64,000 bases of DNA from Halorubrum sp. F4 (GTDB lineage: Archaea > Halobacteriota > Halobacteria > Halobacteriales > Haloferacaceae). Below the pieces are notes generated by a model, which was not told where the DNA came from, did not search any database, and worked only from the letters and a program-made list of their open reading frames with translations. The stretch is taken from the NCBI RefSeq assembly GCF_027257195.1, contig NZ_JAPDFS010000005.1, forward strand, positions 44,442-108,441, read 5' to 3'. A program made the position numbers and the translations under genes. Of this stretch, positions 15,411 through 49,090 are shown piece after piece (the first letter of the stretch is position 1; each line of letters begins with the position of its first letter).

Positions 15411-15437
15411 GGCGTCGAGCGCGACCCGGTCCGGCAT

Positions 15438-15692
15438 CGGCGCGCCCGGGAGCGGGCCGTCGGCCCGCGACCGGACCGCGAGGGAGTCGGCCGCCTCCGG
15501 GCGGCCGACGAGGCTGGGGAGGCGTGAGGTGCGGGGCCGTGCGGTGCCACGAGCGTGAGAGAGCGGGTGGAGGGAAGTCGCAGCCCGCGCAGCGAAGCGA
15601 GCAGGAACGTCTTCGGTAGTGCGGTCGCGGAGGGCGGGACTCAAAGGGACAGTTGTGAGGCTTTGGAGACGGTCACCGCGCGAGCAACGATC
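15438..15692. repeat. Structured interspersed element, copy 1
   Basis: Non-coding element in the gap after tiaS. In order: box CGGCGCG at 15438; a 7-bp hairpin GCGGGCC-GTC-GGCCCGC (15452-15468); CCGCGAGGGA; a perfect 10-bp stem GTCGGCCGCC / GGCGGCCGAC with tetraloop TCCG (15486-15509); the conserved box GAGGCTGGGGAGGCGTGAGG continuing to about 15545; and a distant box CACCGCGCGAGCAACGATC near 15674. Two more copies lie at 20823 and 48922 in the same orientation. The second stem differs in sequence among copies but stays paired. Strand of any transcript is unknown. Confidence 0.75.
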
Positions 15693-15892
15693 CCGTTCTC
15701 ATCACCCGCGTCTCCCTCGAAACAGCCGTCCTACAACACCCTTCATCGCTCGGCCGTTTCGCTCTGTTTTGTATTCGAAGAATAGGATCTCAACGGACCC
15801 GAGTGACCTACCGATCGCTTCGTTCCGATCGGGTCCTCGAACCCGTGCGACTCGGCGGAGCGATTAAGTCACTCCGCCGTACCCACGGTACC
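15693..15892 (+). other. Rest of the tiaS-VOC gap with promoter of the VOC gene
   Basis: Below the structured element the gap holds no convincing ORF. GCGATTAAGTC at about 15860-15870 is a TATA-like box 25-30 bases before the ATG at 15893. Confidence 0.45.
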
Positions 15893-20737: not shown

Positions 20738-20822
20738 TCGTCGATCGTTGGCGGCGGGCCGGCTTGAACGTTGCTTCGATCGATGGGTTCCAGTTCGGTC
20801 GAGTCGTACCGCGTTATGCGGT

Positions 20823-21030
20823 CGGCGCGCCCGGGAGCGGGCCTTCGGCCCGCGACCGGATCGCGAGGGACGCGGTGAGCGCTCGAAGAGCGCGAACCGC
20901 GAGGCTGGGGAGGCGTGAGGTGCGGGATCGTGAGGTCGGCTGGGGCTTCGGCGGTGTTCGTAGACACCCTGACGACCGAGTATAGCCGATCGGCTGGAAT
21001 CGTGGAAAGGTTCACCGCGCCAACAACGAT
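20823..21030. repeat. Structured interspersed element, copy 2
   Basis: Fills most of the gap between nreA and tfb. Same order of parts as copy 1: CGGCGCG at 20823; hairpin GCGGGCC-TTC-GGCCCGC (20837-20853); TCGCGAGGGA; a variable stem CGCGGT-GA-GCGCTC with loop GAA and returning GAGCGC-GA-ACCGCG (20871-20901); box AGGCTGGGGAGGCGTGAGG; and the trailing TTCACCGCGCCAACAACGATC (21010-21030) that ends exactly at the tfb stop codon. The stem includes a symmetric GA/GA internal loop, able to form tandem sheared G-A pairs in RNA. Confidence 0.75.
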
Positions 21031-48908: not shown

Positions 48909-48921
48909 ACTGGATCGCGGT

Positions 48922-49090
48922 CGGCGCGATCCGGTGAGCGGGCCGGCGGCCCGCGAACCGAGCGCGAGGGAGGGCGAGGCGACCTGTCAGCGGTTCGGCG
49001 GGTCGCCGAGACCGAGGCTGGGGAGGCATGAGGTGCGGGGCCGTGCGGTCGGGTGGGTCCTTGGCAGTGTTCAGCGCGTTAGCAACCACG
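48922..49090. repeat. Structured interspersed element, copy 3
   Basis: In the gap between convergent SHOCT and hisE genes. CGGCGCG at 48922; hairpin GCGGGCC-GGC-GGCCCGC (48938-48954); GCGCGAGGGA; variable stem GGCGACC / GGTCGCC (48978-48984 with 49001-49007, 16-base loop); box GAGGCTGGGGAGGCATGAGG from 49014 continuing to about 49049; trailing TTCAGCGCGTTAGCAACCACG (49070-49090). Stem two is unrelated in sequence to those of copies 1 and 2 but still pairs. Confidence 0.72.

Follow-up and report, generated by a model that had tools for sequence, protein, structure and literature searches.

A structured, mosaic intergenic repeat with one conserved strand and lineage-variable occupancy in Halorubrum

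Three related elements in the window, the 64,000-nt stretch of the Halorubrum sp. F4 genome analysed here, belong to a family of intergenic repeats that are structured and mosaic, have one conserved strand and vary between lineages in their occupancy. We rate as an even call the reading that Halorubrum-type haloarchaea carry in this family a high-copy, non-coding, non-autonomous mosaic mobile element that works as a folded single strand and may be transcribed.

Anatomy of the repeat

From 5′ to 3′, the element consists of a box (GCGGTGGCG or GGTCGGCG), the hairpin P1, the box CGCGAGGGA, the hairpin P2, a core, a spacer, box B (GGTGGGAYTCAAAGGGG), an optional hairpin P3 of ~95 nt, the tail CTGGGGCTTTGG and a 3′ box, which sits near CACCGC...CAACGA. 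P1 has the form N4-GA-stem-loop-stem-GA-N4, and 38 of the 44 copies aligned retain its GA/GA internal loop. P2 comprises several stem classes, with GA adjoining the outer stem on both sides in 23 of 75 cases. In 40 of 42 P3 modules, a GGG/GGG internal loop is bordered by pairing of CAAAG in box B with CTTTG in the tail, a count in which conserved flanks and GGG runs are favoured because the P3 anchors were located by pattern. The boxes outside the hairpins are nearly invariant across the 44 aligned copies, and box B lies on the same side of the core and in the same orientation in 7 of 7 cases within 508 kb. In 3 of the 42 P3 modules (L004:1541-1663, L049:1373-1487 and L089:1536-1656), the interior is reverse-complemented; it looks inverted between its own arms, which is a DNA-level event.

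All three window copies were confirmed in place and in one orientation, as in the original prediction, and they lie on the + strand; the starts given there did not hold, and the element begins a few bases earlier, at a GGTCGGCGCG-type box. Copy 1 extends from 5′ box to 3′ box at 15436..15692, starting 25 nt past the TiaS stop codon, and has an orthologue in locus L140. Its P1 (CCGG-GA-GCGGGCC-GTC-GGCCCGC-GA-CCGG, 15446..15474), a hairpin for which covariation is described below, is followed by CGCGAGGGA at the P1/P2 junction (15477..15485), where the alignment columns are mostly invariant, by P2 (GTCGGCCGCC/GGCGGCCGAC, 15486..15509) and by the core box GAGGCTGGGGAGGCGTGAGG (15510..15529). Farther 3′ lie an extra module (GTCGCAGCCCGCGCAGCGAAGCGAGCAGGAACGTCTTCGGTAGTGCGG, 15577..15624), with similar ones in several other copies, and box B, the tail and the CACCGCGCGAGCAAC box (15634..15692), without a P3 hairpin. 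Copy 2 occupies the whole TFB-Nre intergenic gap (20818..21030), also lacks P3, and contains P1 (20831..20859), CGCGAGGGA (20862..20870), a P2 with a GA/GA loop (20871..20901) whose final base doubles as the first base of the core box (20901..20920), and the tail box GGCTGGGGCTTCGG (20938..20951). Copy 3 (48918..49090), likewise without P3, starts 9 nt 3′ of a small ORF and is convergent with a hisE-like gene; it contains P1 (CGGT-GA-GCGGGCC-GGC-GGCCCGC-GA-ACCG, 48932..48960), CGCGAGGGA (48963..48971), a P2 of the GGCGACC/GGTCGCC class (48972..49013) and the core box GAGGCTGGGGAGGCATGAGG (49014..49033). The three cores were assigned by match to the core pattern.

The GCGGGCC-N3-GGCCCGC hairpin, CGCGAGGGA and the three differing second stems are all as originally described, as is the distant ACCGCG-N4-CAAC box except in copy 3, which reads AGCGCG-N4-CAAC. 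The first-hairpin pattern alone, at 2 mismatches, is not above chance in the window (26 matches versus 29 expected), and the 20-base core has 3 window matches at ≤3 mismatches versus a mean of 0.01 in 100 shuffles. The non-chance feature is the ordered set of boxes and not the first hairpin alone. The copies share no ORF in frame, in keeping with the earlier description: the length differences from P1 to P2 are not multiples of three, so that no frame is maintained there. With lengths of this kind and no match in predicted genes, the element is too short for a transposase.

Additional units were noted, the two-hairpin modules by eye. A further two-hairpin module of ~45-50 nt, with differing stems and at varied positions within the element, was seen in L019, L026, L105, L106, L117, L119, L122, L126, L129 and L130. 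In L117, ~250-300 nt past position 15711, a 45-nt two-hairpin module lies within a conserved gene, in frame and stop-free; it is lacking in the other loci compared and resembles a separate small mobile palindrome, comparable to the Rickettsia palindromic elements. In L104, L111 and L112, a tail unit with CTGGGGCTTTGG is present 3′ of the repeat in two to three tandem repeats.

Pairing and covariation of the hairpins

To P1, P2 and P3 alike, the proposal that pairing is retained despite changed sequence was extended on larger sets, and it was confirmed for each. Among the 131 matches that had no N near the core, 83 were kept for P1 and P2 (15 rows were dropped as too long or holding N, and 33 as lacking a clear box); the P1 alignment comprises 44 copies hand-picked from the 55 of ≤118 nt. 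In this alignment of 13 pairs, 95.4% of the cells are paired versus 77.8% after shuffling, and 93 cells are changed on both sides versus 28.6 (each 0/500 shuffles). The P1 covariation score is 0.428 versus 0.137 (0/500), with slid structures reaching ≤0.079; 9 pairs are changed on both sides versus 5.7, and 24 further pair types are seen versus 19.0 (each 2/500). For P2, the outer stem averages 6.05 bp over 75 distinct segments, a mean lowered by imperfect parsing, versus 2.65 bp with shuffled partners and 3.27 bp in the top of 1000 shuffles.

Both P3 anchors were located in 111 of 175 copies, and 102 of these have ≥40 nt between the anchors. Over these 102 copies, the P3 arms pair for 12.4 bp versus 5.9 bp, with 6.75 bp in the top of 1000 shuffles; the 5′ arms, 48 of them distinct, vary widely yet pair. 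The P3 alignment (19 pairs) holds 42 of 66 size-selected modules, hand-picked from the first 46. In it, 97.6% of the cells are paired versus 86.8%, 88 cells are changed on both sides versus 23.6, and the covariation score is 0.316 versus 0.119 (each 0/500 shuffles), with slid structures at ≤0.091; the pair 11-125, for example, is AU in 35 modules, GC in 6 and GU in 1. The structures were derived from the same sequences, which favours them over the slid controls, and related copies are non-independent; the margins are large nonetheless. The helices thus covary, and they are accompanied by conserved unpaired motifs.

Folding energy was dropped as the main test, since GC-rich shuffles fold nearly as well for two of the three window copies (z of −0.71 for copy 1, −2.84 for copy 2 and −0.47 for copy 3). 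The full-length copy in L060 has a z of −2.49 when folded as RNA (0/200 shuffles as good) and −2.01 when folded as DNA (7/200).

The retained pairing had been described as leaving little explanation other than structural selection. The pairing stands, and the exclusivity is too strong, because much of the variation among copies takes the form of whole hairpin cassettes, so that a single event can alter both arms. Selection on the folded strand is still indicated by the loops that are kept, GA/GA and GGG/GGG, and by the invariant boxes.

Distribution, placement and turnover

At ≤2 mismatches, the genome that holds the window gives 67 matches to the core box GAGGCTGGGGAGGCNTGAGG, divided 35 to 32 between the strands, and 0 to its reversed pattern. 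Two of these matches, in one stretch of 225 identical bases, lie at the end of contig C12 and one at the start of C40; the three are probably one copy split by assembly. At ≤1 mismatch, the core is found in 53 of 53 genomes of the genus, with 8-184 matches in each and 4,244 in total. In an even sample of the class, 55 of 293 genomes carry it, namely all 36 of the genus and 19 of the 257 from elsewhere; the latter mostly have few matches, with G226 (64) and G197 (84) as exceptions. The search of relatives with a covariance model, suggested along with the original prediction, was carried out with a model of the 5′ half (R1): with 25 candidates scored per genome, it recovered the repeat in at least 61 of 149 genomes of the family and at least 12 of 28 genera. 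The family extends well beyond the three window copies, and outside the genus its occurrence is patchy.

Several observations were made in the course of these searches. A degenerate copy at L208:16287-16401, followed by a tail box, was found by the covariance model and missed by the core pattern. In G005, the ends of contigs C10, C15, C31, C36 and C14 hold several matches at low coordinates, some of them sharing the same model score, which may be recent near-identical copies in that genome. Several own-genome contigs start or stop within a copy, and runs of N or of a single base occur within copies in L001, L010, L016, L021, L027, L032, L044 and L051, which suggests that sequencing or assembly fails at the hairpins. 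No match was found in phage and plasmid records, with one copy each as query, or in viral contigs, with the exact core. Rfam gave 0 matches in the window and, for four loci at E up to 1, only two sub-threshold hits, both outside the element. A literature search, mostly without subscription papers, returned no description or name for the repeat, nor the core string; the AT-rich virus repeats of PMC7230728 are unrelated to the element.

In the own genome, all 67 matches fall outside genes, as predicted by a codon-based gene caller made for the purpose. Neighbouring genes take any orientation: for the 57 copies with both neighbours called, 22 gaps are convergent, 24 tandem and 11 divergent. The convergent share (22/57) is significantly above that of element-free gaps, of which 17% are convergent when counted by number (p 1.3e-4) and 14% when measured by length (p 3.5e-6). 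This background is 508 kb drawn from G012 and the own genome together, and of the 14 copies within it 3 are convergent. Facing pairs of copies, separated by 1.2-1.7 kb, were seen at L012/L063, L014/L015, L001/L002 and L056/L057.

Occupancy is lineage-specific. At the copy 1 site, the element is present in 1 of 43 TiaS loci examined, namely L140 of G012, the nearest relative, where TiaS is 94% identical. (L140 lies on NZ_RDQE01000001.1, recorded as Halobellus captivus; its sequence matches G012, of the window's genus, and the name may not fit.) Where both genes of the TFB-Nre gap were found, the element is present in 6 genomes, 18 loci are empty (66-141 nt) and 4 hold ~1 kb without a core; L103 and L106 also hold it in this gap. 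Against 400 kb of G012, copy 3, the C12/C40 contig-end copy and the copy in L052 are absent, and G012 has an unrelated 1.6 kb at the copy 3 site.

The hairpins themselves are also exchanged. Eight sites are common with G012, in blocks that align at 89-97%; P1 is different in 5 of them, and P2 is also different in 4 of those 5. P1 and P2 are both kept at L013, L014b and copy 1, and both are different at L012, L014a, L057 and L063, with P3 retained at L012. At copy 2, P2 is identical in G012, the P1 at the same site is different and the two copies differ by an entire P3. Between modules of own-genome copies, Mantel r is 0.17 (p 0.051, n = 46), −0.03 (p 0.52) and 0.19 (p 0.11; n = 20 for the last two), versus 0.89 for a control of the two P3 halves, a value inflated by the pairing of their own arms. 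The nearest neighbours of P1 and P2 coincide in 4 of 46 copies. The hairpins behave as cassettes, and P1, P2 and P3 combine almost independently.

Candidate mechanisms and known systems

In the mobile-repeat reading, copies would spread through a folded single strand, either DNA or RNA, and an enzyme supplied in trans would recognise the purine-loop hairpins and the boxes. Copies that carry a TATA-like motif may be transcribed from a start close to the P1 5′ arm. Hairpin cassettes would be swapped between copies by gene conversion within the boxes they have in common, and this exchange could spread new stems with their pairing unbroken; selection would hold the purine loops and boxes, leaving the stems free to change while paired. 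Several observations weigh against this reading. Neither an insertion scar nor a target duplication or an excised intermediate was observed, and the intergenic flanks are diverged. No linked transposase was found, and the folding of two of the three window copies is no better than that of their shuffles. The strand domains expected of replication-linked insertion are inconsistent across three genomes: copies on contig C1 of G000 are nearly all + at 83-608 kb and all − at 626-869 kb, and the strand-domain p is 0.0005 in the own genome (54 of the 67 matches used), 0.03 in G022 (the first 84 among the matches listed) and 0.4 in G043, or 0.02, 0.28 and 0.81, respectively, by a second measure. Finally, the TATA-like motif discussed below could instead mark a host RNA gene. 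The best paralogue identity in the own genome has a median of 84%, and no near-identical full-length pairs were found there save the apparent assembly duplicate; the mobility claim therefore does not extend to recent movement.

Modular repeats of boxes and hairpins are known from pneumococcus, where BOX elements combine box-A, box-B and box-C units; the present repeat resembles them in this modular build. The nearest published kinds are BIME/REP and the PATE and SMR elements of Haloquadratum. Among the options originally listed, a REP-like mobile element fits best. BIME/REP sequences are outlined in PMC2817692 as high-copy palindromes that form composite arrays and are bound by several factors, and a GTAG/CGTC tag beside the REP palindrome is named in PMC3733652. 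The present repeat shares with them high-copy intergenic palindromes combined as a mosaic. In contrast to REP/BIME, it is archaeal and without a tie to a Y1 transposase, its three hairpin domains contain purine/purine loops, and its boxes are long and invariant. The proposed linkage to a REP-associated transposase was not found: the own genome, at 96% completeness, has no Y1_Tnp hit, and Y1_Tnp is absent from 12 of 53 genomes of the genus, where the median core count is 69.5 versus 69 in the rest. Core copy number and Y1_Tnp are not correlated (Spearman −0.04, p 0.76), and the IS200/RAYT route is therefore not needed for keeping the family. The SMR-A elements of Haloquadratum, as described in PMC3119063, are ~110 bp long, have inverted ends without target duplication and insert into the palindromes of other elements. 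P3 resembles them as an optional ~95-nt hairpin with an interior in either orientation; it differs in that SMR copies are commonly >95% identical according to the same paper, whereas the P3 arms vary widely but pair.

The strongest alternative, tentative in our view, is a host-serving family of structured non-coding RNAs, transcribed from a TATA just upstream, with the boxes and purine loops as a putative binding site. The structured-RNA option is likelier than first judged, given a TATA-like motif at constant spacing from the element in relatives. There, 37 of 88 copies (a non-independent sample that includes orthologue sets) have TTWWWA starting 13-19 nt ahead of the 5′ box; these copies occupy several sites that are unrelated, and between −200 and −80 the motif is almost missing (0-1 per 20-nt bin). 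It also occurs 20-45 nt past the last tail box in 27 of 80 copies of relatives. The invariant unpaired boxes, the covarying helices, the GA/GA loops, the strand asymmetry, the folding of L060 and the keeping of the copy 2 site in 6 genomes are likewise consistent with an RNA. In the own genome, however, one copy out of 51 has the motif ≤25 nt from its 5′ box (1/53 and 1/55 by slightly different selections). An earlier conclusion of no promoter, from the own genome alone, was withdrawn after the motif emerged in relatives. The AT-rich 5′ and 3′ flanks compare at 0.43 within copies and 0.41 between copies (p 0.17, n = 26), so that the motif is not a long target duplication; this comparison would miss a duplication of motif length. 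The motif would be either an element-borne promoter, with a start that the usual archaeal spacing from TATA would place near the P1 5′ arm, or an AT-rich target, and an AT-rich insertion target would give the same picture. Against a host RNA are also the variable orientation to genes, the gain and loss of copies between lineages, the inverted P3 interior in 3 of 42 modules and the lack of an Rfam match. On balance, the motif in relatives raises the RNA reading and lowers both the mobile-repeat and the terminator readings.

A terminator or a nucleoid/topology site at gene ends, as proposed for bacterial REP/BIME, is unlikely. This option from the original prediction is weakly suggested by the excess between convergent genes noted above; insertion tolerance between gene ends would yield the same excess, however, and 11 of the 57 copies are divergent, 24 are tandem, and only 3 of the 14 in the 508-kb background are convergent.

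It is more doubtful still that the repeat is a PATE, a remnant derived from an IS200/IS605-type element and mobilised by the TnpA of that element. PATEs of Haloquadratum walsbyi are described in PMC3119063 as lacking inverted ends, target duplications and a transposase, and as having near-terminal palindromes and a short terminal target oligonucleotide. The host group is the same, and the present repeat is, like the PATEs, haloarchaeal, short, non-coding for a transposase, palindromic and heterogeneous among copies; a TTTATAA flank could be the terminal target oligonucleotide. The repeat is set apart from that description in that no link to IS605-type ends was found, and the Y1_Tnp results given above argue against this origin. 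A link to IS605/TnpB was also sought and not found: TnpB gives 5 hits in the own genome, at a minimum distance of ~2.9 kb to a copy, and the core is absent at these 5 loci and at 6 Y1 loci of relatives.

That template-switch repair and gene conversion alone keep the palindromes perfect, with no structural selection, would agree with whole arms changing and cassettes passing between copies and is nonetheless very improbable, since palindrome repair would remove the mismatched loops that persist here (GA/GA in 38/44, GGG/GGG in 40/42, the latter with anchors set by pattern) and the boxes outside the hairpins are invariant too.

To return to the mobile repeat, a bolder form of this reading, which we put forward tentatively, is a new class of archaeal mobile element in which the hairpin cassette is the evolutionary unit. 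Its own TATA-driven transcript, or its single-stranded DNA, would be read by a non-Y1 enzyme through the GA/GA and GGG/GGG loops and the G-rich boxes, possibly with G-quadruplex-like contacts in a cytoplasm with molar potassium. Identification of the enzyme would reveal whether a REP-like system beyond the known transposase family exists in archaea, and the TATA-like motif in relatives renders the RNA reading directly testable. Covariation among the copies of a repeat need not equal stepwise compensatory mutation, as structure can be held while cassettes turn over. In this respect, the 4,244 core matches of one genus form a natural series in which hairpin structure is constant and sequence changes.
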